Shown one piece after another: positions 3,735 to 62,062 of a stretch of 64,000 nt of DNA. Location of the stretch: positions 1,240,001 through 1,304,000 of the forward strand of contig NC_031672.1 of the NCBI RefSeq assembly GCF_001640025.1, written 5' to 3'. How positions within the stretch are numbered: position 1 is the first letter of the stretch; every line of letters starts with the position of its first letter. Origin of the DNA: Sugiyamaella lignohabitans (Eukaryota; Ascomycota; Dipodascomycetes; Dipodascales; Trichomonascaceae). Under the pieces are notes generated by a model. That model had not been told where the DNA came from. It worked only from the letters and a program-made list of their open reading frames with translations, and did not search any database. The translations under genes were made by a program, and so were the position numbers.

Positions 3735-4055
3735 CTAATGCCCTCAACCGACGACAACGATACCTCATGCTCTCCACCGGCTGGAGTGTCTTTTCTATAC
3801 CGACTTAACTTATTACTACTAAATTATTATTTTTATTATCTGTCCCCACTGCCTCCGGCGGCTGGGGCTCCGCCCCAGACCCTGGTTGCTCCTGCTTCGC
3901 AGGAGTTTTCGGGGTCCGTGATGGTGAGTGAGAGCAGGGTCCGGTGCCAAGTCAGATGTGTCGACCCCTGCATCACGCGGCTGTCCGAATTGCGACAATA
4001 TGAGAGGTCAGGCCGATGTCGGCGTCCATCTTGATCTCTCATAACATCTATCAAA
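3735..4055. other. Intergenic: 3' region of the membrane protein and promoter of FMP41
   Basis: This 321-bp gap lies between two genes read on the + strand. Its left part is T-rich and holds one GC-rich element (3851-3905). The last ~150 bp should contain the FMP41 promoter; no clear TATA box is seen. Confidence 0.6.
3851..3905 (+). repeat. GC-rich hairpin element, single copy, sense to the upstream gene
   Basis: The copy starts GCCTCCGGCGGC, continues with the CTGGGGC-TCC-GCCCCAG hairpin, and ends with the second hairpin CTCCTGC-TTC-GCAGGAG. It starts 117 bp after the stop codon of the membrane protein gene. Confidence 0.95.
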
Positions 4056-4760
4056 ATGTCAACTGCTTATATCCAGAGAGCTAGAAAAATCCTCTGTATC
4101 GGTCGGAACTACGTCGACCATATCAAGGAACTCGGCAATTCCGCTCCTTCGCAACCTTTTTTCTTTTTAAAGCCTACCAGCTCGGTGCTGCTTCCAGGTC
4201 AGGGTCCTATTCTGCGTCCCAAGGGAACCAAGCTCCATTATGAGTTAGAATTGGCTGTTGTGCTCAACAAGACTCTCAAGAACATCAATCCCGAGACTTT
4301 TGGCGAAAAGGAAGCCATTGATGCTATTGAAGGATACGCTCTGGCTTTAGACCTGACTGCTCGTAACGTGCAAGACGAGGCCAAGAAGAAGGGTCTTCCC
4401 TGGTCAATTGCCAAGGGTTTCGACACATTCTGCCCATTGACTCCTTTGATTCCTAAATCCCAGATACCCGACCCCCACAATGCCCATTTGAAGCTTCTTG
4501 TCAACGGCGAAGTGCGCCAATCAGACTCCACCAACCTCATGCTGTTCCGTATCCCACGTATCCTGTCGGCAGTCAGCTCGGTCATGACTCTCGAAGCTGG
4601 AGACATTATTCTCACTGGTACACCCAAGGGTGTTGGCAGCATTGTTCCCGGAGACAACATTCGAGGTGAATTGAGTGTCGACGGCAAAGTTGTTCCCGAC
4701 GGAGTCCTTGACTTCCCTGTCGAGGAGAAGCCTGGTCCCTACGAGTACCACGAGACATAA
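4056..4760 (+). CDS. FMP41: Fumarylacetoacetate hydrolase-family protein (FAHD1/Fmp41-like)
   Basis: The protein has 234 residues, the usual length for FAHD1-type enzymes, which act on acylpyruvates and on oxaloacetate (decarboxylase/tautomerase) and are usually mitochondrial. It opens with the family signature ILCIGRNYVDH, followed by PFFFLKPTSS and the metal-binding region HYELELAVVL, and contains DLTARNVQ and LTGTPKGVG near the end. The family's acidic metal ligands appear present. ATG at 4056 has AAA before it (TCAAAATG), and there is no in-frame alternative. The gene converges on DCD1, with a 170-bp gap. Which substrate it uses here cannot be told from sequence. Confidence 0.9.
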   Translation: MSTAYIQRARKILCIGRNYVDHIKELGNSAPSQPFFFLKPTSSVLLPGQGPILRPKGTKLHYELELAVVLNKTLKNINPETFGEKEAIDAIEGYALALDLTARNVQDEAKKKGLPWSIAKGFDTFCPLTPLIPKSQIPDPHNAHLKLLVNGEVRQSDSTNLMLFRIPRILSAVSSVMTLEAGDIILTGTPKGVGSIVPGDNIRGELSVDGKVVPDGVLDFPVEEKPGPYEYHET

Positions 4761-4822
4761 ATACAATTGTCAAATAAACTGACTCCTGTATACATTGACA
4801 CACGCAGTACGATCCTAGCAAT

Positions 4823-4876
4823 CTCCTGCGAAGCAGGAGCCACGGGGTCTGGGGCGGAGCCCCAGCCGCCGGAGGC
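4823..4876 (-). repeat. GC-rich hairpin element, single copy, sense to DCD1
   Basis: This copy reads CTCCTGC-GAA-GCAGGAG and then the large hairpin on the + strand. It lies 62 bp after the FMP41 stop and 54 bp from the DCD1 stop. It is in sense orientation for DCD1 and antisense for FMP41. Confidence 0.95.
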
Positions 4877-4930
4877 AGGTAGCGACCTTAACAATGTAAA
4901 GAGAATATGCTATTTTTTAGATGGTTCGTG

Positions 4931-6004: not shown

Positions 6005-6050
6005 TTTAGCGGTAGATATTAAGTTAGAGGTACGAAGAAATCGCGGTCAG

Positions 6051-6056: not shown

Positions 6057-6634
6057 GTAGTTTTCGTTTCAATGCTACTTTTAATTTACAGGTGCAGATG
6101 CATGATCGGCAATCTTATCAGTGATTTTTTGGAGATTCTGGTGGGAAATGTCTTGCCCGAGATTTATCCGAGACCAGCATGATCAAAACACGAAAATCCA
6201 AGCCCTCCATGAAACAAATGCCTCAAAACAATGTCAAAATATGATAGATGTCGGAAGGGGTCTGGCATCATCCGCTTTGGAGCCCTTGCTGTAACCGTAC
6301 CGATGCAGCGATAAGTGGATGTAAGTAAATAAGAGACCGCGAATATTTGCCGTTGATATAGCCAAGAAGCAGTCGAAAATTCTTAGAATTCAGGGAACTC
6401 TATTCCCATTCAGGAAAACCCCGTGTCATTTCGAGACTTTTTTGAGAGGCATGTGACGGGTAAATTTGGTACCAGAATCCCGTACCAATAGCGGTTGTCG
6501 GCAAATTGTTTAGGCAAGACACCGACTACCCCACAAAGGTTCCCAGTGACAGTCGACAACGGACCGACCTCCGTTGCCCAGCCTCGAATCCGCAAACCAT
6601 CTACCAATTATGATTTAAAACAACCCCACAAAAA

Positions 6635-6688
6635 CTCCTGCGAAGCAGGAGCCACGGGGTCTGGGGCGGAGCCCCAGCCGCCGGAGGC
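6635..6688 (-). repeat. GC-rich hairpin element, single copy in a divergent promoter region
   Basis: This copy has the CTCCTGC-GAA-GCAGGAG hairpin. Unlike most copies it is not near a gene 3' end but between two start codons, 379 bp before the phenol hydroxylase ATG. Confidence 0.95.
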
Positions 6689-9151: not shown

Positions 9152-10254
9152 CTCTTCAATAAACACTTTCTTCTTCTTTCTTTCTGCCACACTGCCCCTG
9201 GCGGCTGGGGCTCCGCCCCAGACCCCGTGGTTCCTTCTTCACAGGAGATTTCTGGGGTTATACGCTGCCTCCGGCGGCTGGGGCTCTGCCCCAGACCCCG
9301 TAGCTCCTGCTTCGCAGGAGTTGGCTGGTACCGTCGAAAAACCGACTCGAGCGGAGCGAGAGGAGCAGCGGGGTCTGGGGCGGAGCCCCAGCCGCCGGAG
9401 GCAGACCCCTGACACCCGGGAGGTCATGCAGCTGTCGTTATCGCGGCGATTGATTTTCATGTGAAACTGGATTTGCCCGTGATACGTGGACAGCCCCTGT
9501 CGGTCGGTGCTGCAGGAGCTGCTGCTGTCAAAACACGCGACTGGTATCCCAGTTGATCGGTTTTGTCGCTCGCAGCGGCAGGAAACCTTGACCAGATCGG
9601 CTGGGAAATAATTTCGACCCCCCTGGAATTTTTTTCCCGAGAAACGCGAACCGGTGACCAGAATCGAGTGGGGAAAGTGGGATTCTGGTCCTGGTTCGGT
9701 GAGTGGGTTCTGACTCGGAATTGGGGGTTTTGGGTTTAAATTCGGGGTTTGAGATTCGGGTTTGCGTGACGGGGGGGAAGCAGGAGCAGCGAGCTGTCGA
9801 GAAACTGCAGCTGCCGCTGGTGCATAAATTCCGGTCTCGATAATTGCCTCGCTTGTTACTATATAAGACAGGGCCCATCCTGGCAGATACTGCGAGAGCC
9901 CACATTACATATCAGAACTGATATCGAATCCTGGCACGAAGCCGGAGCCAGACGAGTCTATAGATCCAGTCTCGAGTGTGTCCTCACGAATAATCAGAAG
10001 AGATTTTTCAGCAAGAGAATAAAAAATTAAGCTGAAAAATAAGTGAAAAAAAAAAGTAGCTGAAAAGCTGCAGAGAAAGAATATTGAGAGAAAAGGAGAC
10101 CATAAAAGGTCGAAATTTTTGGGCTCAAGAAATCAGATCCTGCTTTGAAATCAGTTTCAGAGTAAAGAATTGTGAGAAATCACGGGTTTGATTTGTTGAT
10201 CAGAATTAAAAAACAAAAAAAAAGTGCTGGATTATTGGATCCGTTCAGTGCACC
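9152..10254. other. Intergenic: 3' region of the hydroxylase gene and long leader/promoter of PSD1
   Basis: About 1.1 kb. The left part holds three GC-rich element arms (9194-9402). A TATATAAG box sits at 9860-9867. The last ~250 bp are A-rich with homopurine runs and probably form the PSD1 5' leader. No credible ORF is seen. Confidence 0.6.
9194..9402. repeat. GC-rich element cluster: two forward arms and one reverse arm
   Basis: Forward arms occupy 9194-9248 (degenerate: GCCCCTGGCGG, second hairpin decayed) and 9267-9320 (intact, CTCCTGC-TTC-GCAGGAG). A reverse arm occupies 9342-9402 with the CTCGAGCG-G-AGCGAG variant. The cluster starts 43 bp after the hydroxylase stop. The duplicated forward arm suggests local amplification. 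Confidence 0.95.
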
Positions 10255-12200: not shown

Positions 12201-12361
12201 GCCTCCGGCGGCTGGGGCTCCGCCCCAGACCCCGTGGCTCCTGCTTCGCAGGAGTTGCTGGTCCATATCGGATATTAAATTAAATACAGAACCCCGACGC
12301 CCGACTCGAGCGAAGCGAGAGGAGCAGTGGGGTCTGGGGCGCAGCCCCAGCCGCCGGAGGC
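12201..12361. repeat. Inverted pair of GC-rich elements between convergent PSD1 and MFS genes
   Basis: The forward arm (12201-12254) begins 39 bp after the PSD1 stop, and the reverse arm (12298-12361) ends 5 bp from the MFS stop codon. The arms differ in the second hairpin: CTCCTGC-TTC-GCAGGAG on the left and the CTCGAGCGAAGCGAG type on the right. Confidence 0.96.
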
Positions 12362-12366
12362 AGACC

Positions 12367-14371: not shown

Positions 14372-14654
14372 GCCTCCGGCGGCCGGGCTCCGCCCGGACC
14401 CGTTGCTCCTCTCGCTTCGCTCGAGTCGTTTTCGGGGGGTGAGGGCATCGCACAGGTGAGCGAGGTCCAAATGTATCTCCTCTGAGGGGCACTTGTCCAT
14501 AGTCTCAAATCAGTCTCCGAGACCTGGTTCACGAGCTGTGAGCTCAATTCCCTCGCAAAGGGAACCAAACCCCCCTCGCGGCCCACCGCCCAACGCCCGA
14601 CTCGAGCGCAGCAAGAGGAGCTACGGGTCCGGGCAGAGCCCGGCTGCCGGAGGC
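14372..14654. repeat. Inverted pair of GC-rich elements, divergent CCGGGC variant
   Basis: Forward arm 14372-14428 and reverse arm 14594-14654. Both arms carry CCGGGC/GCCCGG instead of CTGGGGC/GCCCCAG in the large hairpin, so the stem is kept although its sequence changed, and both arms changed together. The reverse arm ends 82 bp from the APC1 stop and is in sense orientation for APC1. Confidence 0.93.
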
Positions 14655-22152: not shown

Positions 22153-24959
22153 ATGACTCTAGTCAAATTTGTCGCAATTGCCTTTAGTGCAGTTGCAACT
22201 GTCGTGGCTACTGATCATGCGTCTCTCCTGAAGGAAATCCATCCACATTGCGTAAGTAGCGATAAAGTTTTTTGAACTAGTTCGACAGAACTGGAAGATA
22301 CTAACAGCTCAAGGCCGATGCTGCGTATATGAAATGCTTTAACATGGTTATAGCCCAGTTTGACAAGTGCCCCTCTGAAGACAATGGCTGTAAATGTAAT
22401 CTTCTATATGCCCTCAGTTCAGGATGCCCCCAACAATGTGCCAGTGCTGGTGGTCAAGTAATGAAGGAAAACAGCGCTGTTACTGAACTTTGTGGTCCTA
22501 ATGATATAAAAGCAGCAACTCTTGGATTTGGCCATTTACTCCCGTTTTTCGATGCCCGTGGAAGCTCTGGAGACGAGTACTATGACTATGGTAGTAACGA
22601 TTTCGATGATGATGACGATGATGAATGTGATAATGGAGATGATAGTGATGATGGATCTCAATGGCATCAGCCAAAGCCTCCTCCAATACCTTCTCCACTG
22701 CCTCCTCCTCCACCACCACCTCCTTCACTTCCAAATTACCATTATCCCCCAGTTGAATATATGATGCCTCACGCCTCAGATGAAGGATACCCTCCTCCTC
22801 CCCCTCCAGGATACTATGGCGCCCCACCACCTCCACCAACGCAATATTACGGTGATGCTCGGTATGGTCCACCTCCTCCACCTTCAGCCCCTTACTATGG
22901 CGAAGCTGCTTATGAAAACTATCGTGAGTACCCCAATGGTCGCCATGAGGAGCAACAAGATGATGAGGAGTGCGATGGAAGTTCAAATGAGGCCAATACT
23001 GGCTATTACGAGTTCAATAGTGAATATGAATCATGGTCTGAGCCTTGGACACAAGCCGATATTATTCCTGCCGAAATTAAGGATGTCATTGACTCGATTC
23101 ATATTGCAGGTGTCGAATCCGAACCTGTAGTTGAAGACCAAGCAATTGATGGTTTTGATAACGAGCGCATTGCCAGTGTCCAAGGAATCATCCCTGGTCT
23201 CCCTAGACTTAGAAAGTGGCTTAGAGCAAAGAAACAGAATATCGAAGAATTTACTTCTGAGGATGACAACAATGGACAATCGCAATCGATGTCAATGTCA
23301 ATGTACTCGACCATATCTATGTTGCCATCATCTACAGCTCATTCAACTGTTATGCCTGCCTCTGTTGTCGTTACTTCCTCGCCAGTTGCCACCTCATCAA
23401 TGAGTAATTCGATGACCATATCACCAGAAGAAACCTCGTCGATGACTGAGGAGTGTGACGCTGAATGTATGGCTGCCCTGAAAGCCAAAAATGAACAAAT
23501 GGCTGAAGAAAACGGTATTACTGACAGAATCCAAAATAGACTCCATGAAGACGACGACTGTGATTATGAGTGTCAAGCTCTACGGGCACAAGGTGGTGGT
23601 TGTATTGCCGGTGAGGGCTGTAATTTCTTGCCTGATTTCAAAGAAAAGTTCCATGGCAATGAAGAGGAAGACTGTGACGAAGATGGTTGTAAAGAAAATG
23701 ATAATAACAATAATTCTGACGCCACGACTGGTAGCGGACTCAGTAAAGATAGAGCTGGCATGCTTCATAAGCTCCCTAATCTCAAGGATAAATTTCACGT
23801 GTGTGATCCTGATAATGAAGATTGTATGGCTCGGGAAGCCGATGAGTCTCCTAGAGAGTCTCTAAAACAAGTTCAACCCGATGCGAAGGATAGGGCTCCG
23901 ACTCAACAGAATCAAGTCGGGGAGCAAGTGGAGGAGCCAACCCAATCCAAGGAAGAAGTTGTTGGAGAGCCTGTTCAGCAACCCGCTGAACAGGTAACAG
24001 AGCAGCCTAACGAGCATTCTAAGGGACAACCCAAAGAGCAGCCAAAGGACCAATCTAAGGAGCAACCCAAAGAGCAGTCTAAGGAACAACCCAAGGAACA
24101 ACCCAAGGAACAACCCAAGGAACAACCCAAGGAACAACCCAAGGAACAACCCAAGGAAAACCCCAAGGAACAGCCTAAGGAACAGCCTAAGGAACAGCCT
24201 AAGGAACAGCCTAAGGAACAGCCTAAGGAACAGCCCAATGAACAACTCATTGAGCAACCCCAGGAACAGCCTAAGGAGCAGCCTAAAGAGCAACCCAAGG
24301 AACAACCCAAGGAACAACTCAAAGAACAACCTAGCTCTCATACAAAAGAGCAATTCAGTTCTGTATCAAAAGAGGAATCTAAATTCGTTATGGCTACAGC
24401 TCCTCCAACACCACCCAAGTCTGCTCAAATCGTCAAGCTTATAACGTCGTCCTCCTCATTCATCCGTGCTGTACAACCATCAAGCAAACCTACTAGTATC
24501 GGAGGTATGTCCAATTCCAACAATGATTGTGAAACTGATGATTGCAACGACAATAATTCAAACAACGGTCATTCCATGCCTGGTTTATCTCACTTCAAAG
24601 AAAAGATGCCCTCTTGGCACTGTGCTCAAGATGATCCTGACTGTGAAGCTCTCGTCAAATACATTGGAGGTGATTTAAACAAAACTAACAACGTTTCTGG
24701 AAGAACGGGTGCTGCTCAACACCATTCGGCAGCTGCCTACGCCATGGCAAACAGTACAGAAAGCAGCAATTCGACTAGATTCATCTCAGTTAGCGTTATG
24801 GATGATCGTAACAGTACTTTTAACAAACTCAACGAGACTGTTAACAGCAACACAAACACTAAAAGTGCTCATGTTGGAGCGTCAATCAGTAGCTCAACTT
24901 CCATGGTCTTGAACGGGTTTACTCTTGGATTCGGTCTGCTAATTGCGGCTTGGATTTAA
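22153..24959 (+). CDS. CFEM-type GPI-anchored cell wall protein with KEQP repeats
   Basis: Two exons: join(22153..22251,22308..24959), 916 residues. The 56-nt intron runs from GTAAGT to GATACTAACAG, with branch site and acceptor fused. Exon 1 gives a signal peptide (MTLVKFVAIAFSAVATVVA). Eight cysteines follow (residues ~33-90, including CKC and GCPQQC), the count and style of a CFEM domain, often used for haem binding or wall anchoring. Next come an acidic stretch, a Pro/Tyr-rich stretch, cysteine-bearing repeats, about 25 KEQP units (24024-24335), and a hydrophobic tail (LNGFTLGFGLLIAAWI) fit for a GPI signal. Its N-terminus is missed if the intron is ignored. Function in this yeast is unknown. 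Confidence 0.85.
24024..24335 (+). repeat. 12-bp tandem repeat coding for (Pro-Lys-Glu-Gln)n
   Basis: About 25 units of AAGGAACAACCC-like 12-mers inside the CFEM gene. Units fall in two blocks with different synonymous codons (CAA CCC in the left block, CAG CCT in the right), showing block-wise amplification. Confidence 0.95.
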
Positions 24960-27494: not shown

Positions 27495-27636
27495 GCCTCC
27501 GGCGGCTGGGGCTCTGCCCCAGACCCCGTAGTGCTCGCTTCGCGAGCGTTCTCGGCCCTGCCACGACCACCAAGCCCGACTCGAGCGAAGCGAGAGGAGC
27601 CGGGGGGTCTGGGGCGCAGCCCCAGCCGCCGGAGGC
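27495..27636. repeat. Inverted pair of GC-rich elements between APC2 and the Cdt2-like gene
   Basis: The forward arm (27495-27548), with the GCTCGC-TTC-GCGAGC hairpin, starts 50 bp after the APC2 stop. The reverse arm (27573-27636) ends 46 bp from the Cdt2-like stop. Confidence 0.96.
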
Positions 27637-30409: not shown

Positions 30410-30469
30410 CGACTCGAGCGCAGCGAGAGGAGCAGCGGGGTCTGGGGCGGAGCCCCAGCCGCCGGAGGC
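30410..30469 (-). repeat. GC-rich hairpin element, single copy in a divergent promoter region
   Basis: Reverse orientation, with the CGACTCGAGCG-C-AGCGAG variant. It lies 553 bp before the hydrophilin-like ATG, not near any gene 3' end. Confidence 0.95.
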
Positions 30470-31596: not shown

Positions 31597-31660
31597 GCCT
31601 CCGGCGGCTGGGGCTTCGCCCCAGACCCCACGGCTCCTCTCGCTGCGCTCGAGTCGGGCG
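31597..31660 (+). repeat. GC-rich hairpin element, single copy, sense to the hydrophilin-like gene
   Basis: Starts 105 bp after the stop codon. The large hairpin loop is TTC instead of TCC, and the second part is the CTCGCT-G-CGCTCGAG variant ending in TCGGGCG. Confidence 0.95.
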
Positions 31661-32673: not shown

Positions 32674-33169
32674 CAGAGCCTCATTACGACCACCTCTTCT
32701 CTTCTGACACCAATCGACTGTTATCCACGCGCTGTCAGCTCCATTTTTTCGCTATTTATTACCTTGCTTACCAAGTGCCCCGCTCGGAAACTCGCTCATG
32801 ACCTCGAGTCCGACGCCCGCACCTCACGAATTCTAACGATACTAAATTTTCTCATTTTCTGCCAAACCCGTGGGCCAGATGCCTCCGGCGGCTGGGCTCC
32901 GCCCAGACCTGGTTGTGCTCGCTTCGCGAGCAGCTGCTGGGGTTCCCGGAACACTGGCAGGTCAAATGCCTCCGGCGGCTGGGCTCCGCCCAGACCGGGT
33001 TGTGCTCGCTTCGCGAGCAGTTGCAGGGACCCCTCGAGCCCGACTCGAGCGAAGCGAGAGGAGCAGCGGGGTCTGGGGCGCAGCCCCAGCCGCCGGAGGC
33101 AGCGTGGCCCGTGTGTCATACTCTAATATTATTGGCGTAATATATACAGGGGTGGTGGCGCCGGGGAAG
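32674..33169. other. Convergent intergenic region between the uncharacterised gene and COQ1
   Basis: 496 bp, nearly half of it GC-rich element arms (32881-33100). The remaining sequence shows no ORF or RNA gene. Confidence 0.6.
32881..33100. repeat. GC-rich element cluster: two forward arms and one reverse arm
   Basis: Forward arms at 32881-32932 and 32968-33020 have a shortened large hairpin, CTGGGC-TCC-GCCCAG (one base pair lost on both sides), and the GCTCGC-TTC-GCGAGC second hairpin. They are tandem duplicates of each other. The reverse arm at 33038-33100 has the full-length hairpin and ends 70 bp from the COQ1 stop. Confidence 0.96.
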
Positions 33170-34570: not shown

Positions 34571-36174
34571 ACTAACACTGATGTGAACTGATAGTAGAAC
34601 AAGTCGATATTAGCCAAAGAGAGGGGCAGGTGAATCAGACCAAAACAGAGAAAACCTAAAATTCAATGTCAACTGATAATAGTCGAACGACAGACAAACA
34701 CTTCGAACAGATAAAAAGTCCAAAAAAAAGACGAGATATAAACAGTTCCTGACAGAGAAAGTCCAAGACAGGGAACGAGCCAAAGAAACAATCAGTTCAA
34801 AAGAGAGAACGAGTCAAAAATACAGAATCTAAAACTCTAACAGTTTCAATGTCGCTATTAAATTAGTCAGTGGACGATAAAATCAAAGAACGGCGAGACC
34901 CGAGGTATGCAGCAGCAGTCGAGAAGCAGTCGAGAAAACAGTCGCAGATTGCGGTTTGGCCGACGAGCACGAACCGATTATCTATAAAAATCCAAAAACA
35001 AGCCAAGCCAATGAGGCAGTGAAACAAGAACGAATTCCAATGAACAACAAACAAAAAAACTTTTGATGTCCTGAATAAATCAATTCTCCCAAGAACGACC
35101 CGAGCCTGCTGTACCCTATCAGTTGCAATTGTGTGTGGCTGTTTAACCGTTACAGTTTGAGCTGATCCGTGATCTGAAAATTTCAGCAAACCACCTGCTC
35201 TCCATCTCCCACCGCAGCTCCTCCTGCTCCTGCTCCTGCTCGTATTTCCCAGCCAGCCGAGCCCATCTCGCTCCTGCACGTCACCGGTGCGGCGCTGCTC
35301 TGCTCAAACGGGTCAGTTCAGGGGGTGGGCCCTGTGCCTCCGGCGGCTGGGGCTCCGCCCCAGACCCTGGTTGCTCCTCTCGCTTCGCTCGAGTCGGGCG
35401 TGGGGCCCCTGATAGGCTCAAAACTGTGAAAAAAGCACCGAATTCGGCGAAAATGGCGGGTTTTGATCCGTTGTCGGGCTCCTACTACCGACCAACTGCC
35501 CCTGTACCTCTAGCAAAACCCTCCAAATCGCCCCTCCAAACGAACGCCAGCCGACCAGACACCCCCACGCCCGACTCAAGCGAAGCGAGAGGAGCAACCA
35601 GGGTCTGGGGCGGAGCCCCAGCCGCCGGAGGCAGACCCACCCCCTGGCCCATGATTTCGAGCCGCACCTGTGCAGCAGCAGCGTGGCCTTCGGAAGAACG
35701 ATGAGCGTGATCTATCACTTTTCACTGCAAGTACCACCAGAGAGGCAATTTATCGGATCTCGGTAGGCCTGTACGGGGTAGATTTATTTTTGCGAGCAGC
35801 AACGGACTTTGTTTAGTGCTGGTTTTGAGGACTGATAAGAAAATTATTTGTAAATTACAGGCTTGGACTCGTTTGCAACTGATTTTGCAGTTGTGATCTG
35901 TCGGATTAATCTTGTGACTGAAATTTCAGTAGTGGCTGTTTCAGGTGTGCGATTAGAAATTGCAGTGCTTTTATTGGGTTCGCACAATTGCTAGTCATTT
36001 TGGACTCGTATCAGAGAGTTTTTGAAGTGGGATATCACGAATCAGGTTTATTTGCCCACGACAAGTTAAGTGTGGTTCAAGGAGATTATTGTTCCGTGTG
36101 TCATCTTCCAAGTGAACTGAATTACAGTAGAAAACAATAGCAACTTAAAAGATCAGAAATAGATTTTTGAGAGT
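34571..36174. other. Divergent intergenic region between COQ1 and RER2-like gene
   Basis: About 1.6 kb with A-rich leaders on both sides. An element pair (35336-35632) sits in the middle, far from any stop codon. A C/T-rich tract with GCTCCTGCTCCTGCTC repeats lies at 35215-35250. No ORF is supported. Confidence 0.6.
35336..35632. repeat. Inverted pair of GC-rich elements between divergent genes
   Basis: Forward arm 35336-35402 and reverse arm 35569-35632. Both have the CTCGCT-T-CGCTCGAG type, the reverse arm with one change (CTCAAG). The inner ends TCGGGCGTG and CACGCCCGA pair as well, so the inverted repeat extends beyond the core. Confidence 0.95.
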
Positions 36175-37137: not shown

Positions 37138-37298
37138 GCCTCCGGCGGCTGGGGCTCCGCCCCAGACCCTGGTTGCTCCTCTCGCTGCGCTCGAGTCGTT
37201 TCTTCGACGTTTCCGGCAGCGAAGGGTCCTGTACGCCCGACTCGAGCGAAGCGAGAGGAGCAACCAGCGTCTGGGGCGGAGCCCCAGCCGCCGGAGGC
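37138..37298. repeat. Inverted pair of GC-rich elements between RER2-like gene and RPL11
   Basis: Forward arm 37138-37200, 25 bp after the RER2-like stop; reverse arm 37236-37298, 77 bp from the RPL11 stop. The variable loop base differs between arms (G and A on the + strand), so this pair is not concordant. Confidence 0.96.
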
Positions 37299-38640: not shown

Positions 38641-38704
38641 GCCTCCGGAGGCTGGGGCTCCGCCCCAGACCCCGTGGCTCCTCTCGCTGCGCTCGAGTCA
38701 GGCG
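38641..38704 (+). repeat. GC-rich hairpin element, single copy, antisense to both flanking genes
   Basis: Begins GCCTCCGGAGGC, a change that makes the first 12 bases a perfect palindrome. It lies 339 bp past the YRB1 stop and 266 bp before the RPL11 ATG, an exception to the usual 3'-end sense placement. Confidence 0.95.
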
Positions 38705-39042: not shown

Positions 39043-40034
39043 TTATTTGCTGGCCTCCTTGTTGAGGGCTTGGGCCTTGGCGAACTCCTCCTTGAAGGCA
39101 TTGGCGTTGTCGGCGTTGGCAAAACGGATGGCCAGAGTTTGGGCCTCGGGCTCACCTTCACTGATATCAGAGGCAACGTTGTACACCCAACTTCTGTCAC
39201 TGCCGACATTGGGCGACAGCTTGTATTCAGGGTGGATGTAGTGGTTGGCACAGATCTTGAGGGTCTTGTCACGACGCATCACAAGACGGACCTTACCGGT
39301 ATCCTTGTGCTTCAAGAATCTGACATCACCAGTTCCTCTCTCCTTCCACTCCTTGGTGTCCTTGTCGAAACGGAACAACTTAGAACGGCTATAAAACAGT
39401 TAGTATACGTCCGATCGGCACCTAGAATTCATGAACCAACTCCATCTCATCCACAGGGCTTATCTATCCAGTTTCTTCACCTGAGTTCAATCAGAATCAA
39501 GACAGGGATATAACAAAACACAAACAACAATCCAATTCCCTCCAATTGGCACCGCGCTCGACCCCAATCCCCACGTAACTCCCGCGAAGCGGGAGCCAAG
39601 GGGTCTGGGGCGTAGCCCCAGCCGCCGGAGGCAAAACCCCCCTCCCACCAGAAAACTTACATCTTGTAAACAACCTCTTCTTCCTCTTCGTTGGTCTTGA
39701 CCTCGACCTTCTCCATCTTGATTACAGGCTCGAAGTGCACATCGGGGGACTCAGGAGCCTCGTCCTCGTCCTCCTCATCCTTCTTCTTGTCGCTGTCAGC
39801 AGAGGTCTTAGACTCGGCATCGGCAGCAGGCTTGGCTCCACCGAACATGGAGAAAACATTGGTGGTAGCACCAGTGGTAGTGGGCTTGAAAGAGGAACCG
39901 AAAATGGAGGCGGGAGCAGCACCGTCCTTCTTGTCTTCCTCAGTCTTGGTAACAGGCTCCTCAGTCTTAGGAGCAACAGCTTCCTTGACAGCCTCGACCT
40001 TGTCTTCAACGGTCTTCTTAATCTCTTCTGACAT
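39043..40034 (-). CDS. YRB1: Ran-binding protein 1 (RanBP1/Yrb1)
   Basis: Yrb1 stimulates GTP hydrolysis on Ran and releases export complexes at the nuclear pore. Two exons: complement(join(39043..39388,39661..40034)), 239 residues. Exon 1 codes the Lys/Glu/Asp-rich N-terminus and the start of the Ran-binding domain ([12 protein letters not shown]); exon 2 continues as [19 protein letters not shown], with [12 protein letters not shown] and the VGSDRSWVY signature. The 272-nt intron runs from GTAAGT to TACTAACTGTTTTATAG; the join codon is ATC. A GC-rich element lies inside the intron, 28 nt from the donor. The frame would stop without splicing. Confidence 0.94.
39579..39632 (-). repeat. GC-rich hairpin element inside the YRB1 intron
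   Basis: Second hairpin CTCCCGC-GAA-GCGGGAG, a stem variant not seen elsewhere but fully paired. Sense orientation relative to YRB1, 28 nt from the 5' splice site. Confidence 0.96.
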
Positions 40035-41168
40035 GTCTTATGTTGTATGTGTGGTGTATGTATCAGTGCAAGTGTACCAGATCAAGAGACGAGAGTATCA
40101 CTGTTGGTTGGTAATGTTTTCCTTCCCTTTCGTTCCAGTACTGCAAAAAAATCACTGCCGTTGTTTTTTTAACCCCTTAGCTGCCATTAATATTGTGTTG
40201 TCGGGGTGATACCCTAGTCCTTGTGCGGCTTGGGTTTATGGCATCAGTCATGGGTAATTAATATTGCTAGAAAATGGTCATTTTAAGTCTGAGATGATAT
40301 CAGATGTATGAAATAAGATAGTTAGTTGTATATTAGCGATTAAATAGGCAGTTGTGGATTATTTTCTTGTATTCAGACTCGCAATGTGTGGTATTGACGC
40401 TTGCTATGTCAATATGTATAGTAGATATGACCCACAAACCAGGACTTCAAGAAGAACAGAGATAAAGTGTGAGAATACTAATATATAAATAGATAAAAGG
40501 GCAAAAATAAACTTATCAAACAGACAGAGTGAATAAATAATTATGTAATAGAGACTGCAAAATAAAATAGAAGTCTGTGTCAAGAATAAATAATAGTGTA
40601 GAACTAGTTAATTACAGATGTGCATGTACCTTACTGGCAGCTTAGTTTCGGAAATCTCAGGGGTACTGCAGCTACAGTGTCATTTTTCAGTAGGCTCTTT
40701 ATTTCAATATCAAAAAACAAAACAAAGAGATTCTGAGGTTATTTTTCAGTTTCCTTGCTCATCAGATCATGAATCATCTTCTTACAAGTGAACTCGAGCT
40801 GGGTATTTCCATTTCCACAAGTTCGTTTCACCCAGAGAGCGTGGCTGACTGTCGTTATTCCAGTGATTTCCGCACCCAAAACCTCATCTAAAATATTTGG
40901 ACCTCTCCTACACCTCTCAATCGACAACCCCACGGTCCTAGCAGCTCCGCGAAGCGGAGCACAACGGGGTCTGGGGCATAGCCCCAGCCGCCGGAGGCAG
41001 GCCCCGTTCCCCATAGTAACCCCCCTCACCCGCTGCCGCGCATGTAGCCAGTATTACCCGGCGCACATGCTGTAAGCATGGATAGCTCGAGCTGGAGAGA
41101 GTAGTGATATAATAATAAGCAGAGGACGAAGATAACGAACGACATCAATCACAAACGCCACAAACACA
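40035..41168. other. Divergent intergenic region between YRB1 and PRE2
   Basis: About 1.13 kb, AT-rich on the left. It contains one GC-rich element (40944-40998). A 96-codon ORF on the − strand (40739-41029) runs through the element and has an unrecognised 66-residue remainder; it is not called as a gene. Confidence 0.55.
40944..40998 (-). repeat. GC-rich hairpin element, single copy
   Basis: Second hairpin GCTCCGC-GAA-GCGGAGC; large hairpin loop changed to ATA (GGGGC-ATA-GCCCC). It lies between divergent genes, 171 bp before the PRE2 ATG. Confidence 0.94.
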
Positions 41169-42259: not shown

Positions 42260-42412
42260 GCCTCCGGCGGCTGGGGCTCCGCCCCAGACCCTGGTTGCTC
42301 CTCTCGCTCCGCTCGAGTCGTTTCGTCGACGGTGCCTGGTTCGTGTACGCCCGACTCGAGCGGAGCGAGAGGAGCAACCAGGGTCTGGGGCGGAGCCCCA
42401 GCCGCCGGAGGC
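42260..42412. repeat. Inverted pair of GC-rich elements between PRE2 and FHL1
   Basis: Forward arm 42260-42322, 40 bp after the PRE2 stop; reverse arm 42350-42412, 106 bp from the FHL1 stop. The variable loop base is C in one arm and G in the other, so the arms match. Outside the core, CCCGGGTCT and AGACCCGGG pair too, making arms of over 70 bp. Confidence 0.97.
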
Positions 42413-42517: not shown

Positions 42518-45500
42518 TCAGCCGCTTTTGGGCGCTTTGATGGCCGAGGTGTCGAGTGTTTCTAGGGGCTCGTCCGACGGCCGTTTGGGGAGCGAGGATG
42601 TGGTGGGGCCGGTGGCTGCAGTTGATGGTGAACTGGCAGACGTCGCATTGAGTTTGCTGGCGTGTGCTCGGAGCTGCTCGAGTGCTGCTTTCATGCTGGG
42701 AGACGGGTTGCTGATTTTGCTGGCTTGTGCCAGCAGTTGTGCAATGGTCGCAGCAGACGGTTTCGCTGCTGGTTTAGCAGGGGCAGCAGATGCCGTTGTG
42801 GCTGTTGTAGGAGCAGAAGACACGGGAGGAGCAGGTGCTGACACAGGTGTTGCAACAGCAGCAGCAGCAGCAGCAGCAACAGGGGGTTGAACTGGGGTCG
42901 TGGATGTTGGATTTTCAGCCAGACCGTTGGATAGAGTGTTGACAGAGGGGGCTGTAGATGTGTTCTGTGGAGCTGGTGACTCGAAAGGAGTCTGTGTGAG
43001 ATCCACAGATGTTGGTGGAGGAGCAGAAACCGGGACTGAAGTTACAGCAGGAATTGTTGCAGAAGAAACTGGTGTGCTCGTAGCTGGAGGTAACTGTGTG
43101 TTACTAACAGGAGCAACAGCAACAGGTGTTACAGGTACGGTATCAGCTGCAGCAGTACTGGTAGCAGTTGGTGCAACAGGTGCTGAACTGGTTGGAGCAG
43201 TAGTAGCAGTAGATGTGGCTGGTGCCGAGGGTCCAGCAGCAGGAGATTTCTTTTTAGCCATAGCTGCCAGTGCTGTTTGTAGAAGCTGAGTGAGTTGAGC
43301 AGGGTTCTTTCCATTCAACAGCGAAGAGATGCTGTTGGCTCCTCCTGTCTTTACAGCTTGTGCAATTGCTACAGCCAGGGCATTAGTCAGAAGTTGCGAG
43401 TTGGCTCCGGTGCCAATACCCATACTTTGAATCTGTGTTTGTATCTTTTGTTGTAACACTCCTAATGCCTTGATTGTGTCAGGTGCTAATGATAAACCTG
43501 CTGATTGTACTGCTGCTACTGTAGCATTGGATTTATTAGCACTCGAACCAGCATTTGCACCACCAGCAGGAACTGGAGTTGACGATATCGTCGAGTTGGA
43601 CTGACCAGCATTCCCAGCTTGATAGAATTTCGATGGTTGAACTCTCATTTGTGGTACTGATGTAGACTGTTTGAGAGATGGAGTCTGTCCAGGAGCTTGG
43701 GTGGTCATATTGACATTACCCTGTTGTTTAGGTGGTTTGGCCATTCGGAATGTATTCTGACCAGCTGCTAGAGATGGTTGTACTAATGGAGTAGTGGTAC
43801 CACTGCTAGTAGAGCTATTAGCACCACTGGAGTTGGCACCTCCTCGACTCAAGGCTGCTTGACGTTGCAGATTAGCAGCCAATTGGGCCTGAATACTATT
43901 TGGAGATGGTGAAACTGGTGCTCCTGATCCACTGGCCCTGGTATATTCTGTAAAACTGGCCTGTCTACCTTGTGTACCACCCGGTAGAATCCGTGTAGAT
44001 CCAGACAGTGGTCTATTGCCATTTCCACCAGCAGCATTGCCAGATGAGCCAATACCAAGCGATTCTCGAGTCATTTCCGAGTAATTCGCATGATACGTGC
44101 CATCACCAGTTCTATTAATCTCGATTTCTCTCGCCAGTTCAGCAATAGACTTTTGTTTTTTCGGTTGTTGTAGCTGCTGCTGTAACAACTGTAATTGTTC
44201 GTCAGTAGTCGCATTGAGGATATTATTGATTTCATTTTGCTGTTGTTGCAACTGTAATTGTTGTAATTGTAACTGTTGTTGCTGCTGTTGCTGTTGAAGC
44301 TGTTGTTGCTGTTGACGAGCTGCCTGTTGAGCAGCCTGAATAGCGGCTGCTTTGCTCTTGGCAGCAGCAGCCTTCTTTTTCTGTCGTTCTTTTTCCAAAA
44401 AGTACTCTTCATCAATACCCCACAGCCATCCCTTGCCTTCTTTCGACACTTTTCTAAACGCCTTATTCGAAGACAGGTTGTGACGCACCGAGTTCTGCCA
44501 TCCATGAGGACAGTATTCGTAGTACGGGAAGATTTCCTGAATCGCTTTATAAATATCCGACAGCGATAGTCCTGTCAGAGGAGCTCTTGACCGCAAAGCT
44601 GTTGCAATCAAATGTGAGTATGAGTGCTGGGGTTTTTCTCGATATTCTTCGGGGATTTCTTCTGGCAAGTATTCTCTCCGGACCTTTTTCTTCGACTTTC
44701 CCGTCGAACCAGACCCGTTAGTACCGCCAACTTCCCCTAACAAATCGCCCCCAGCGAGCAAGCTGCCTACAGCAGCCTCGCCAATGACTCCACTGGTAGC
44801 CTGAATAAGTTCCTGAGCAAACTGCGGGTCGATATTCGCGTCCAAACTCGCTGCCTCATCAATGGCCTTCAACTGGGCATCAATCTCCTGCCCCGTCGTC
44901 GTCTGTGGCATCGCCACTGGCGTCGCTGGCGAGCCCACACCCGACTTGCTCGCCGACTCCGCCATTTTCTCGCCCACCGGCTCCGATGTCTCTCTCACCC
45001 CATCTTCCAAAGACAGTGCTTCCGTCGCACTCGCCGCCTCATTCGCTGCACCGTCACCCTCGGCGCTCTCTCCACTGATGCCCAAAACCGACGGTAGCAC
45101 AAACGTGAACGGGATCTGGCCGATCTGGACCTTGGTTCTGTTTCTGTTAGTGACACACGCTCGGTGGGTGTGTGCCTCCGGCGGCTGGGGCTCCGCCCCA
45201 GACCCTGGCTGCTCCTCTCGCTTCGCTCGAGTCGGGCGTATACGAACCTGGCACCGTCGACGGAACGACTCGAGCGCAGCGAGAGGAGCAACCAGGGTCT
45301 GGGGCGGAGCCCCAGCCGCCGGAGGCATGCCCCCAGAAGTAACTTACCCGTCACTGAGTGGAACAGTAGACCCGGTTTCAACGAAGACATCGCCGACAAA
45401 GGCGCCGTTGCGGCCCATGACGGATAGTTCGAAGCGTTGGGTGCCGAAGTTGTAGAAGATTTTGGCGTGTTTTCGGGAAATGGCTTTGGCAGGCCCCAGG

Positions 45501-46306
45501 TGGACATCGACCATGCCGGTGCCGTTTTCTGCTCGCCGGCCAAGGATTACTTGCAGTGTTTGCACGTAGAATGTGAACGATTCGAAGTCGAGTCGTGCGT
45601 AGGCCGATACTCGGGCCGATTCATCGATGTCTAGCTCGTTATTGTTGTGGTTGTTGGTTGAATTGTCTCCGGTAGGATGTATCGTTGACCCCGTGGTAAT
45701 GGCGTTTGCCGCTGATAGTTCGGATGAGGTCGTATTCGGGTTGGTGTTAGAACCGGATTCGGTTTTCACTTGTGCTTGGCTGCTGGCAAATGTCAGTGGA
45801 AACGAGGATGGAGATCCCAGAGTCGAGAACGCTCCAGACCCAGCGGCCTCGCGGTCTCGGATGCTGCTGGGGGTTTCTGGAGGCATGGATGATGCTCGTC
45901 CTGGCAGTATTAACGTACTTCCCAGTCCGTTATTCAGACTCATGGAGTTTCCATCTAAAGATCTTTCTAAAGTAGGTTTTCGAACCTCGGTCAGTGGATC
46001 GAGCAGACTCGCTATTAGAGACGACGGCAGTGTTCTATCGTTCTTAGGTGTCGCGAATATATCCATATTCGACGCCCCACTACTAGAACTGCCACCACTG
46101 CCCGCTTGGTTCAGAATATTATTGCCTGTAAGATTCGACTCGTGACCAGATCCAGCATCTGGTGCTGCTCCGGGAGGAGGAAGCATGCCAAACGCGTCAT
46201 GTTCCAGCTTGATATTCTCATAGCCCGTAGGGGTATGGCTCATACTCCGCACAGCGTCCGAGGGATCTCGAAGAGGAGATCCCGAGCCTGGTGACGCTGT
46301 GCTCAT
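42518..46306 (-). CDS. FHL1: Forkhead transcription factor with FHA domain (Fhl1-like)
   Basis: Fhl1 binds ribosomal protein gene promoters and recruits Ifh1 or Crf1 through its FHA domain. Two exons: complement(join(42518..45143,45348..46306)), 1194 residues. The FHA domain spans the junction (about 228-350): YVQTLQVILGRR, ISRKHAKIFYN and GRNGAFV in exon 1, then QIGQIPFTFVLP in exon 2. The forkhead is at ~488-575 (HSYSHLIATALRSR, WQNSVRHNLSSNKAF), followed by a Gln-rich stretch (~586-634) and a long Ala/Ser/Thr/Pro C-terminus. The 204-nt intron ends CACTAACAG and holds an element pair. Confidence 0.9.
45174..45326. repeat. Inverted pair of GC-rich elements inside the FHL1 intron
   Basis: Forward arm 45174-45239, reverse arm 45266-45326, 21 nt from the 5' splice site and 30 nt from the acceptor. 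Removing the pair would leave an intron of 51 nt, the size of the element-free short introns here. Confidence 0.97.
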
Positions 46307-47295
46307 AACCCAAAGAGTTTTTGTGTGTCAGTGAGAGCGCAAACCTGCGAAGCAATGTGTGCTGCTGCTGCTAAACAAACCAGAACACAAACACAGTTGC
46401 AAAACGCCAAAAACAGAGGTGGTTTCTGATATAAATAATTACCGTGGCTGTCACCAAACAGGTACGACAGTCAAATCAGTCTTGAAATACGGACTCTTGA
46501 TATCTGAGATTGTGTCTTTGTGAACTTTCATGGAACGCGTTCCACAGTGGTTCGATCAAGTGGTGAGCTCACTTCAAACTGCACAATAATTAATTTCGCG
46601 AGTCAACTGGAACCTGTGATTATACCAGTAATATCCAGTCAGTACACACCGGTTCACAGCTTATCCAAAAGTCCCAAAAAGAACCACAAAAACAATCCGT
46701 CTCCAACTGCGTCGGACGTCGATGCTATTTATTTCCGTCTCAAACGAGCCGCCTCGCTGCCAATATATGCACATATAATCCTCCTCAGATATATATTTTC
46801 ATGATTATCAACCCGGCATTTCTCCGCCCCACCGTTTTCACACTTATGCACACGCGCACGCGGCTGTCCCACCAGGGTCCAACAGGGTTCACAGACCCTG
46901 CCTCCGGCTCAGGGGGTGGTTTTCGGGGGTTTGGTGCTGCCTCCGGCGGCTGGGGCGCTGCCCCAGACCCCGCTGTGCTTGCTTCGCAAGCGGTTTGGGG
47001 GATGGGGATGTGGCCTCCGGCGGCTGGGGCTCCGCCCCAGACCCCGTTGTGCTTGCTTCGCAAGCAATTGAGACTCGGGGGCTTGTGTCTATTGGGGAAT
47101 ATCACTCAGGAGTCACTCACTGGGGCCTGTGTCTTTTGGGGAATAAAACCCAGGGGTCACTCACTGGATCCAGCCTGTCCCGGGTCCCCACGCCCGACTC
47201 GAGCGAAGCGAGAGGAGCAGCGGGGTCTGGGGCGGAGCCCCAGCCGCCGGAGGCAGTCCGCCTCCCCCAGAAAGAAAGAAGAAAGAATAAATAAT
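46307..47295. other. Intergenic between FHL1 start and kinase stop
   Basis: About 990 bp. The left half should contain the FHL1 promoter. The right half holds a cluster of GC-rich arms (46939-47254) and a direct repeat of ~35 bp sharing CACTGGGGCCTGTGTCTTTTGG-like text at 47095-47165. No ORF is supported. Confidence 0.55.
46900..47254. repeat. GC-rich element cluster: a fragment, two forward arms and one reverse arm
   Basis: Fragment 46900-46910 (only GCCTCCGGCTC). Forward arms 46939-46991 and 47013-47065 have the GCTTGC-TTC-GCAAGC hairpin; the reverse arm 47191-47254 has the CTCGAGCGAAGCGAG type and ends 42 bp from the kinase stop. The first forward arm has the loop GCT in the large hairpin. 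Confidence 0.95.
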
Positions 47296-50037: not shown

Positions 50038-50102
50038 GCCTCCGGCGGCTGGGGCTCCGCCCCAGACCCTGGTTGCTCCTCTCGCTTCGCTCGAGTCGGG
50101 CG
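50038..50102 (+). repeat. GC-rich hairpin element, forward, single
   Basis: CTCGCT-T-CGCTCGAG type ending TCGGGCG. Lies over 1 kb from either start codon and near no gene 3' end. Confidence 0.95.
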
Positions 50103-50604: not shown

Positions 50605-50755
50605 CACAGCGGTACCTGTCAATATTCATATAGCACCATTAAGGAGACGTATACCACCCCTTAAGTACTCAAGAACCCCTAAATTTTTATTTTATTTTAT
50701 TACAGTTTCCACAGCACACACGACACCAGCAACAGGCTCCTGGTACCCCCCAGTC

Positions 50756-50808
50756 GCTCGCGAAGCGAGCACAACGGGGTCTGGGGCAGCGCCCCAGCCG
50801 CCGGAGGC
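50756..50808 (-). repeat. GC-rich hairpin element, reverse, single
   Basis: Second hairpin GCTCGC-GAA-GCGAGC; large hairpin GGGGC-AGC-GCCCC. 315 bp before the PBI2 ATG. Confidence 0.94.
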
Positions 50809-51739: not shown

Positions 51740-51996
51740 GCCTCCGGCGGCTGGGGCTCCGCCCCAGACCCCGCTGCTCCTCTCGCTACGCTCGAGTCGG
51801 GCGTCTACGGTCCCTCTTTCTCATACAATACACAATGGTACTGCACAATGGTACTGTTTCGGTGGGTTTTTGAATTGTGATTCGTGAAAGTAGCCTGACC
51901 GAGCAAGTAAACACGCGAGCTGGGCCCGTAGACGCCCGACTCGAGCGTAGCGAGAGGAGCAGCGGGGTCTGGGGCGGAGCCCCAGCCGCCGGAGGC
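51740..51996. repeat. Inverted pair of GC-rich elements between PBI2 and chitinase
   Basis: Forward arm 51740-51803, 88 bp after the PBI2 stop; reverse arm 51933-51996, 100 bp from the chitinase stop. The variable base is A in one arm and T in the other, a unique variant shared by both arms. Confidence 0.97.
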
Positions 51997-57929: not shown

Positions 57930-58147
57930 GCCTCCGGCGGCTGGGGCTCTGCCCCAGACCCCGTGGCTCCTCTCGCTTCGCTCGAGTCGGGCATCGGGGG
58001 TGCCAGACAAATGAAAAAATAGTCGGGATTTTTTTATCCCCAGAAATCCGAGTTTTGCGAGCCCCGCGAAACAGGGACCCCGATGCCCGACTCGAGCGAA
58101 GCGAGAGGAGCCACGGGGTCTGGGGCGGAGCCCCAGCCGCCGGAGGC
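57930..58147. repeat. Near-perfect inverted pair of GC-rich elements upstream of the SEC8 stop
   Basis: Arms 57930-57999 and 58078-58147 are reverse complements over about 70 bp with one mismatch (loop TCT against TCC). The inner ends GGGCATCGGGG and CCCCGATGCCC also pair. The reverse arm ends 56 bp from the SEC8 stop, in sense orientation. Confidence 0.97.
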
Positions 58148-61200: not shown

Positions 61201-61671
61201 TTGAGAATCAGCTGTTTCGTCGAGTCGATGTTGTTCTGCGAATTGGTCACACTCTGTACAATCGTCCGGTACGAACCAATTGAGCTGTTGAAACCCTGAT
61301 AATTAGCTATAATCCTGTTAGAACCCATCCCTCCAATTCATCTCAACCCCCTTCAATCCACTACACAATCTCCCTCTCAACAAAAACCTACCATCAACGT
61401 GACTCTTGAGCGCATTCTGCAATGCCTCTTTAACTGAGTCAAACTCGTCATGAAACCGGGCTTTACCAATGGAACTGGTATCCATCAGCGCCAATGCCGT
61501 CTCCAGAGTATTGGCATTCTCCTGAAGCAGCTCCCGAAAGTGAACGCCCACCTCCTCCAGCAGACTGTCCATATTCGACTCCTTCCGAGCACTCCGGGGC
61601 TTGGCCATTGACAGCCGCCGCGAAATATTCGCGCCCTGACCAGTCCCTGCCGTCAAATAACTCGCGTCCAT
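58203..61671 (-). CDS. SEC8: Exocyst complex subunit Sec8
   Basis: Part of the exocyst, which tethers secretory vesicles at the plasma membrane. Proposed: complement(join(58203..61306,61392..61671)), 1127 residues (1065 in S. cerevisiae). Exon 1 contains the conserved coiled N-terminus (LLEEVGVHFRELLQENANTLE, ALALMDTSSIG), exon 2 continues as NYQGFNSSIGSYRTI and the long helical body. The 85-nt intron has donor GTAGGT, branch TTCTAAC and acceptor ATTATAG; the fused CTAACAG nearby would give a stop at once. The frame is open upstream of the ATG at 61671 to about 61872 without another ATG, and EWLERHTPGQGRLS just upstream resembles the start of yeast Sec8, so a further 5' exon or a non-ATG start is possible. 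Confidence 0.85.
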
Positions 61672-61778
61672 ACTCAAACGACCCTGTCCCGGTGTATGTC
61701 TCTCCAACCACTCCACTTCACCAGGGTCTCTGGCATAACCGAAACCTGACGCCGCGCGAGCCGCTCGGACGGAGTTCT

Positions 61779-62062
61779 GCCTCCGGCGGCTGGGGCTCCG
61801 CCCCAGACCCTGGTTGCTCCTCTCGCTTCGCTCGAGTCGGGCTTGTGGGCCCCGGAGTTTACTAGTTGGGGTTAATGGAGGAATTCGAGTGGTTTATTGC
61901 TCGGTTTAAGGTACCAGAGCTCTTCTCACACTTCCTTATATCAGCTCACCACGAACATGTGCATCCCTATAAGAGGACACTCAGCCAGGAACCCCCGAGC
62001 CCGACTCGAGCGAAGCGAGAGGAGCAACCAGGGTCTGGGGCGGAGCCCCAGCCGCCGGAGGC
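61779..62062. repeat. Inverted pair of GC-rich elements between VPS15 and SEC8
   Basis: Forward arm 61779-61842 and reverse arm 62000-62062, 39 bp from the VPS15 stop and in sense orientation for VPS15. The forward arm lies 108 bp before the proposed SEC8 ATG and may be inside its leader or a 5' intron. Confidence 0.95.

Follow-up and report, generated by a model that had tools for sequence, protein, structure and literature searches.

A G/C-rich double-hairpin repeat of very high copy number, enriched beyond stop codons and present in likely introns, in the yeast Sugiyamaella lignohabitans

The nuclear genome of the yeast Sugiyamaella lignohabitans (15.93 Mb in 4 contigs) carries a short G/C-rich repeat, built of arms with a conserved head and two hairpins, that is concentrated in non-coding DNA just past stop codons. 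We analysed this repeat in a window of 64,000 nucleotides (contig C1, bases 1,240,001-1,304,000), where single arms, facing pairs and clusters lie among the genes, and in further sequence of the same genome. Strain CBS 10342 has been described as having 16.0 Mb, 4 chromosomes, 6,820 genes and introns in 5% of the genes (PMC5499181). A profile built from exact copies was run with a cut-off of E <1e-3 on 322 kb, comprising the window, 200 kb of contig C2 and a number of C1 pieces. The C2 sequence was unselected; the C1 pieces were picked for containing a head, so their arm density is biased. The search returned 191 arms, namely 39 in the window (20 forward and 19 reverse), 89 in C2 and 63 in the C1 pieces. 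An earlier note on this DNA, made from the letters alone, had counted about 21 forward and 19 reverse arms plus a fragment, in good agreement with the profile. Genes were taken as plain open reading frames (ORFs) of at least 200 amino acids, the codon model being too weak; small and spliced genes are missed by this definition, and many arms have no assigned gene.

The repeat and its copies

The exact 12-nucleotide (nt) core of the repeat, GCCTCCGGCGGC, occurs 3,117 and 3,115 times on the two strands of the whole genome, 6,232 copies together, against 1 and 0 for the reversed control. When the head was required to be followed by NN-GGG and at most one mismatch was allowed, 6,882 sites matched, or about 6,900 copies. 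The window holds 18 + 18 exact cores. Tolerating up to 2 mismatches there gave 77 raw matches with 2.7 expected by chance, most of these sites being counted on both strands because the core and its complement differ by 2 letters. Decayed copies form a minority, as 159 of the 191 profile arms have an exact head and 32 do not. Rfam gave no match at gathering score in the window or in ten bacterial loci, and a 170-bp query found no match in a plasmid collection. One stretch of 15.6 kb (C1:207958-223540) contains 29 arms, a density above that of every other sampled stretch of comparable or greater length.

Aligned copies share one order of parts: a T, the 12-nt head, hairpin 1, GACCC, a short linker and hairpin 2. 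The T precedes the head in 93% of the 191 arms, extending the conserved head to 13 nt (TGCCTCCGGCGGC), and neither a GTAG nor a CGTC tag lies beside the stem. Hairpin 1 reads TGGGGC-nnn-GCCCCA, with the shorter variants CGGGC...GCCCG and GGGC...GCCC. Hairpin 2 comes as type A (CTCCTGC...GCAGGAG), type B (CTCCTCTCGC-TNC-GCTCGAGTCG) or type C (GTGCTCGC...GCGAGC), and its stem shows compensatory variants such as CTCCTGC/GCAGGAG, GCTTGC/GCAAGC and CTCCCGC/GCGGGAG.

The loops are also restricted. Those of the form GCnnnGC contain TNC in 167 of 172 arms, which is GNA on the opposite strand, and TNC is found in 121 of 181 loops of hairpin 1. At the middle position of the loop the choice of letter is almost unrestricted in B arms (T 45, G 24, C 9, A 7), and A arms keep a fixed letter (T 42, C 1). 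In addition, the B stem keeps the same T.C mismatches next to the loop across 88 arms, which would give tandem G.A pairs on the opposite strand. In DNA, both GNA minihairpins and tandem G.A pairs have unusual stability. This pattern of letters, taken with the known chemistry, suggests that the strand bearing the GNA loops and tandem G.A pairs may be the working strand. Calculated energies did not reproduce this stability for DNA, and with DNA parameters neither strand of the B hairpin was favoured (top -2.2, bottom -2.4; for RNA -2.1 and -5.3). A candidate outer stem, pairing the G-rich left flank with the GACCC tail, was rejected because the flank does not covary with the tail of its own arm (P 0.46); the left flank is still more complementary to the tail than its own shuffled letters are (3.61 vs 2.96).

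Position at gene ends and in likely introns

The position of the repeat relative to genes shows a real and large bias. Among the 63 ORFs of C2, 19 have a head within 150 nt downstream of the stop and 6 within 150 nt upstream of the start (Fisher P 0.007). The window is more densely occupied, with 17 of 23 and 0 of 23 in the same two counts. The nearest downstream head was sense in 19/19 cases in C2 and in 16/17 in the window. For exact heads in all sampled sequence, the first 100 nt past stops held 36 sense and 0 antisense copies, and the first 100 nt before starts 0 sense and 1 antisense. A plain arm count in the window and C2 put 36 of 128 arms in the first 150 nt past stops, a density of 3.35 per kb. 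The last 150 nt ahead of starts had 0.42 arms per kb, ORFs 0.03 and the remaining non-coding DNA 0.88 (82 arms). A density calculated by units (2.7 vs 0.38 per kb) was set aside, since a single head on the stop side was enough to score the whole unit there, a bias towards that side. Most arms are more than 150 nt from any annotated stop, partly an effect of the small and spliced genes absent from the ORF set.

In a separate tally of 27 window ORFs picked by hand as genes, a head lay at most 210 nt from the stop in 21 and a sense head in 20. This recount bears out the earlier note, in which 20 of 25 genes were said to have a sense copy within about 210 bp past the stop.

Because heads point outwards in a pair, the nearest head is automatically sense, and lone arms were scored separately. 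With a lone arm defined as one without a second arm within 420 bp, those within 400 nt of a stop in C2 were 5 sense and 0 antisense, and the window provided one clear case (3,851, sense) and one ambiguous case (4,876). Over all 322 kb, using a 400-bp rule and distances up to 500 nt, we found 9 sense and 2 antisense; one sense and one antisense arm of this set probably form a wide pair (411 bp between C2 72,443 and 72,853), and the set also contains the ambiguous 4,876 copy. Of 34 lone arms examined, 23 lie elsewhere than near stops, partly since small and spliced genes are unannotated. These data, small in number, support a sense bias of lone copies in yeast. Enrichment past stops and a sense lean among singles, the two points on which the earlier proposal had been staked, were thus recovered in independent sequence, with small numbers for the lone copies. 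Three singles had been put forward as independent tests of orientation: those at 3851 and 31597 are indeed sense, and that at 4823 (the 4,876 copy) is uninformative, as it lies between convergent genes. Lone arms whose nearest landmark is a start codon were antisense in 11 cases and sense in 3.

Such placement could reflect a functional 3'-end element, in which the sense head and hairpin 1 in the 3' untranslated region would aid cleavage, termination or protection of the mRNA. Several features agree with this. Where the first head lies no more than 300 nt past a stop, its distance is 36-75 nt in 30 of 51 cases; nearest copies are sense and lone copies lean the same way, as do the bacterial copies described below; and TATATA is found between stop and head in 11% of cases compared with 27% in the first 60 nt past genes without a head, as if the element had replaced part of the signal. 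Short A/T inverted repeats have also been described near poly(A) sites of S. cerevisiae (PMC6420913). However, 44 of the 63 C2 ORFs have no copy within 150 nt, an A/T-rich tract persists 20-50 nt ahead of the head, and the paired unit can sit either way round at the gene end.

The copies within likely introns also speak against a role in 3'-end formation. A donor GTRAGT lies at most 45 nt ahead of 9 of 173 outer arms, where 2.3 would be expected from background and 4.3 from shuffled flanks; the opposite strand gave 2. Six of these nine donor-preceded arms or pairs continue into a likely intron of 187-272 nt, with a branch point CTAAC shortly after the arm or pair and an acceptor. Four of the six keep an open frame across the splice for 70 codons or more, among them the lone sense arm of the RanBP1-domain gene (39,389-39,660) and the FHA/forkhead pair (45,138-45,347); in the other two, weaker cases the frame closes after 40 and 18 codons. 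At window positions 45138-46306 the FHA and forkhead domains are encoded in adjacent frames, and the likely intron between them is mostly filled by the element pair. A rough intron scan placed an arm in 9 of 24 candidate introns, some of these candidates being surely false, and one arm was antisense in its intron.

In all six likely introns the donor precedes the head and the branch point follows the arm or unit. Both splice signals are therefore outside the element, which does not make the introns. To the earlier statement that no confidently assigned coding exon is interrupted, it should be added that a lone copy and a pair of the window sit in likely introns. A sense arm within an intron must be transcribed through, which argues, indirectly, against a strong terminator or poly(A) signal. 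A function in termination or polyadenylation is thus disfavoured, and we regard a 3'-end element as an unlikely explanation of the repeat overall.

The arms, pairs and clusters of the window are collected in Table 1. Two other repeats were seen in the same DNA: a 44-nt direct repeat at 47078-47165, in the spacer of the cluster at 46939-47254, and a tandem repeat with a 12-nt period at 23928-24379, inside the ORF at 22329-24959.

Table 1. Copies of the repeat in the window, with the two likely introns that hold copies (w, with; positions count from the first base of the window)
Feature	Position	Strand	Context
Single arm	3851..3908	+	117 nt past stop of ORF 654-3734, sense
Single arm	4819..4876	-	Between convergent genes: sense to deaminase gene (55 nt), antisense to FAA_hydrolase gene (116 nt)
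Single arm	6631..6688	-	No ORF stop nearby
Cluster + + -	9194..9402	.	Decayed arm 9194, then A/B unit 9267-9402 (136 bp)
Facing pair A/B	12201..12361	.	Between convergent genes
Facing pair, short-stem variant (CGGGC...GCCCG)	14372..14654	.	Right arm w altered head
Facing pair C/B	27495..27636	.	Between convergent ANAPC2 and WD40 genes, 51 and 47 nt past stops
Single arm	30412..30469	-	
Single arm	31597..31654	+	105 nt past stop of ORF 31022-31492 (ORF without Pfam match), sense
Cluster + + -	32881..33100	.	Two left arms w short stem GGGC...GCCC
Facing pair B/B	35336..35632	.	297 bp span
Facing pair B/B	37138..37298	.	Between convergent cis-prenyltransferase and ribosomal protein genes
Single arm	38641..38698	+	Head w one mismatch
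Single sense arm	39575..39632	-	In likely intron of RanBP1-domain (YRB1-like) gene
Likely intron	39389..39660	-	Donor GTAAGT, branch point TACTAAC, 272 nt; holds arm 39575..39632
Single arm	40941..40998	-	
Facing pair B/B	42260..42412	.	40 nt past stop of proteasome subunit gene
Facing pair B/B	45174..45326	.	In likely intron between FHA and forkhead parts of one gene
Likely intron	45138..45347	-	Donor GTAAGT, branch point CACTAAC, 210 nt; holds pair 45174..45326
Cluster + + -	46939..47254	.	
Single arm	50038..50095	+	
Single arm	50751..50808	-	
Facing pair B/B	51740..51996	.	Both arms w rare loop letter A
Facing pair B/B	57930..58147	.	
Facing pair B/B	61779..62062	.	

Paired units and their possible spread

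Arms occur predominantly as facing pairs. Neighbouring arms within 400 bp were arranged +- in 66 cases, -+ in 10, ++ in 8 and -- in 4, and 132 of the 191 arms have a facing neighbour within this distance. The earlier claim that paired arms always face each other is therefore too strong. Pairs with two exact heads and a span of 119-149 number 1,175 facing and 10 back to back in the whole genome. Many pairs of the sample span 133-148, and the commonest unit, of about 137 bp, consists of an A arm, a short shared centre and a B arm. Both arms could be typed in 24 of the 37 sample pairs of span 150 or less, yielding 22 A/B, 2 B/C and no A/A or B/B combinations. The centres of short pairs look alike by eye. 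Long pairs are mostly B/B, with spacers unlike one another.

The two arms of a pair resemble each other in their variable letters. In long pairs they matched in the loop of hairpin 1 in 18 of 26 cases (11.9 expected), in the tail letter in 18 of 21 (10.2) and in the loop letter in 8 of 11 (4.0). In short pairs the tail matched in 26 of 33 (16.5 expected) and the loop of hairpin 1 hardly more than expected (14 of 34, 11.8). This match beyond chance implies that arms have been copied or converted as pairs. Among 14 short A/B pairs near a stop, the A arm was proximal in 8 and the B arm in 6; as either arm may face the gene end, only the part common to both arms could matter there.

Terminal inverted repeats and high copy number are shared with classical foldback miniature inverted-repeat transposable elements (MITEs), which are moved by a DDE transposase through cut and paste with duplication of the target. 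The genome does contain two DDE_1 matches, in open frames at C2:1705346 and C1:5904871. However, no target duplication was detected in 66 pairs (36 short, 30 long) at lengths of 2-10 nt and with two end alignments, the counts being near chance throughout; the largest excesses, both among the long pairs, were 4 where 1.4 was expected (2 nt) and 1 where 0.14 was expected (4 nt). The arms, moreover, hold internal hairpins and also occur alone and in tandem, and we consider an origin of this kind very improbable. In the search for other enzymes, Y1_Tnp (PF01797) had 0 matches in the yeast genome, with the positive control found in 5 of 14 genomes. Helitron N and hAT domains also gave no yeast matches, but the controls gave none either, so their absence is not established. 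The reverse transcriptase domain RVT_1 matched 13 times, several of the matches scoring equally and lying in open frames of about 1,100 amino acids.

Taken together, the repeat is probably a very high-copy, non-coding and non-autonomous mobile element with hairpin ends, similar to the bacterial REPINs, that lands or is kept just beyond coding sequence. A mobile element fits best because it covers the defined unit length, the arm types, the decayed copies, the clusters and the copies in introns. Of the roles listed in the earlier note, which also include mRNA stability and insulation, targeting by a mobile element thus fits best, and termination or 3' processing lost ground through the sense copies in likely introns. 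The unit would be two arms facing each other, as in a bacterial REPIN. It would land on, or survive in, non-coding DNA past stops, in the A/T-rich 3' region, and likewise inside introns between donor and branch point, whereas insertions into exons would be lost. Mobility, passage through a single-stranded hairpin intermediate and selection against other sites would all be part of this scheme. Copies past stops and in likely introns are where one would expect them if the element inserted into, or survived in, non-coding DNA that is transcribed.

Several observations weigh against a mobile element of this kind. No responsible enzyme was identified: Y1_Tnp was not found, nor were Helitron N and hAT, for which the controls gave no match either, and DDE_1 contributed two matches. 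No empty site was seen in the single yeast genome examined. Conservation is no higher in arms at unit span (mean 51.0 bits, exact heads in 61 of 76) than in lone arms (48.1 bits, P 0.24; exact heads in 31 of 35). The density past stops is 3.8 times that of other non-coding DNA, above what mere tolerance easily gives, and the 150 nt before starts are only about twofold poorer than other non-coding DNA. Finally, pair geometry provides no explanation for the sense lean of lone copies, in C2 or in the whole sample.

Bacterial twins and known systems

A scan of 84,980 prokaryote species for the pattern head, NN-GGGG, loop, CCCC-NN, GACCC found at least 120 matching stretches. Taxa among the matches listed are Desulfovibrionaceae, Desulfoluna, Oscillibacter, Sandarakinorhabdus, Arboricoccus, Myxococcota and a few others. 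Exact heads on both strands numbered 1,558 in Desulfoluna limicola (reversed control 0), 1,252 in D. spongiiphila (6), 403 in Oscillibacter (11), 318 in Solidesulfovibrio aerotolerans (1) and 193 in a member of the Myxococcota (43), with a minimum of 15 (control 1) among the 12 bacterial genomes queried. The spread is patchy: head-NN-GGGG was present in 20 of 297 genomes from the phylum of S. aerotolerans, and 4 of these had at least 17 matches. Five viral contigs contained one head-hairpin-GACCC copy each.

As the loci were chosen by the yeast pattern, independent evidence of likeness comes from position, orientation and pairing and not from GACCC and GGGG. Of 228 bacterial heads, 181 run directly into a perfect stem of at least 6 bp (2 in shuffled controls), with 47 distinct stems. 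The search pattern itself is matched by 132 of the 228 heads, and 51 of the other 96 have such a stem, with tails that are mostly GAAAG (20) or GAATC (13) and GACCC in 5. Heads also precede CAAAGGG stems and GAGGTG or AAGGTG stems, and Desulfoluna has a longer form of the head, CCTGCCGGGGGCC.... As stems and non-pattern tails differ in this way, the head is the constant part, and the hairpin and, beyond the searched form, the tail are variable. None of 235 bacterial heads is followed within 70 nt by a hairpin 2 of the yeast type.

In the 150 nt that follow stops of ORFs of 200 amino acids or more, lone bacterial heads were 50 sense and 14 antisense (two-sided P 7e-6), and 57 of 83 sense stop-to-head distances were 5-40 nt. 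The 150 nt before starts are poorer in lone heads, though not empty (11 sense, 14 antisense). Neighbouring heads within 400 bp were +- in 37 cases, -+ in 4, ++ in 3 and -- in 4. Inside ORFs of at least 150 amino acids we counted 49 of 137 hairpin-bearing heads, and shadow ORFs of G/C-rich DNA are suspected here. Y1_Tnp was present in only 5 of 12 head-bearing bacterial genomes queried and therefore does not explain the bacterial family either. The residual sense bias of lone copies, stronger in bacteria than in yeast, leaves room for a coupling to transcription.

Whether the bacterial likeness arose by convergence, with a stable or enzyme-friendly head-hairpin fold being reached independently, seems to us evenly balanced. 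Convergence is consistent with bacterial stems that resemble neither the yeast stem nor each other, and with the missing yeast-type hairpin 2. Yet the 12-letter head, the facing pairs and the sense position past stops all agree, and folding alone does not fix the letters of the head. It is conceivable, if rather doubtful, that a single family of GCCTCCGGCGGC head, G/C hairpin and GACCC inhabits several bacterial phyla and the yeast nucleus, tied in sense orientation to the 3' ends of transcripts. In that case a REP-like element might have crossed domains, or a hidden enzyme might recognise the same end, with insertion coupled to transcription or its end.

REP and REPIN-type repeats have been described as prokaryotic (PMC3116915, PMC3733652). 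A yeast whose nuclear genome has a REPIN-like layout, with copies about as numerous as genes, would offer an experimentally tractable eukaryotic example of how such elements spread when no transposase is visible. The bacterial twins share the head and the sense lean past stops, and through them the reason for the presence of such repeats at gene ends becomes testable in both domains. For annotation, the hairpins fill introns and 3' regions and could mislead the prediction of genes and terminators.

Searches of the literature on the core string, Sugiyamaella, G/C-rich or palindromic repeats of yeasts, palindromic repeats of the bacteria concerned and fungal REPs brought up no description of the element that could be recognised from titles and abstracts, and the S. 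lignohabitans genome paper may mention the repeat. MITEs, foldback elements and introners are short non-autonomous inverted-repeat elements with copies in introns. The yeast element shares the terminal inverted repeats of MITEs and lacks their target duplication; introners supply splice signals and create introns, and the yeast element does neither, the signals being outside it in the six cases above. Double-hairpin elements of fungal mitochondria are G/C-rich and dispersed by insertion, and in this respect similar, but they are mitochondrial and have other sequences.

The short ApT/TpA-rich or A/T-tract inverted repeats near poly(A) sites of S. cerevisiae are likewise inverted and at yeast gene ends, but as described in PMC6420913 they are A/T-rich and not a G/C-rich family. 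The BoxC/PIT triplex motifs of enterobacteria are G/C-rich, sometimes form inverted pairs and allow triplex-like folds, as would GGGGTCTGGGGCnnnGCCCC on one yeast strand. BoxC, however, is reported to have no strand bias and to lie more often upstream of ORFs, and was searched with a limit of a 6-nt stem (PMC4666352); the yeast sequence differs from the consensus given there, and its G-run of 3-5 nt is under 6. CGTC-tagged REPs apparently have no dedicated transposase and form homo- and heterodimers (PMC3733652). The yeast element is also a tagged hairpin repeat without an apparent dedicated transposase, but its tag differs, and the main text of that paper contains neither CGGCGGC nor GCCTCC.

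REPINs are inverted REP doublets linked to RAYT transposases and described as randomly placed in extragenic space (PMC3116915). The yeast element differs from them in residing in a eukaryotic nuclear genome without a Y1_Tnp match, in having two hairpins per arm and the head GCCTCCGGCGGC instead of GTAG, in its strong bias to the region past stops and in doublets that are not better conserved than singlets. Since the Y1 enzyme, the tag, the conservation pattern and the random placement all fail, we place the element outside the REPINs and call it REPIN-like by organisation, sharing with them tagged hairpin arms, inverted doublets of preferred spacing, singlets and clusters, and a non-coding location.

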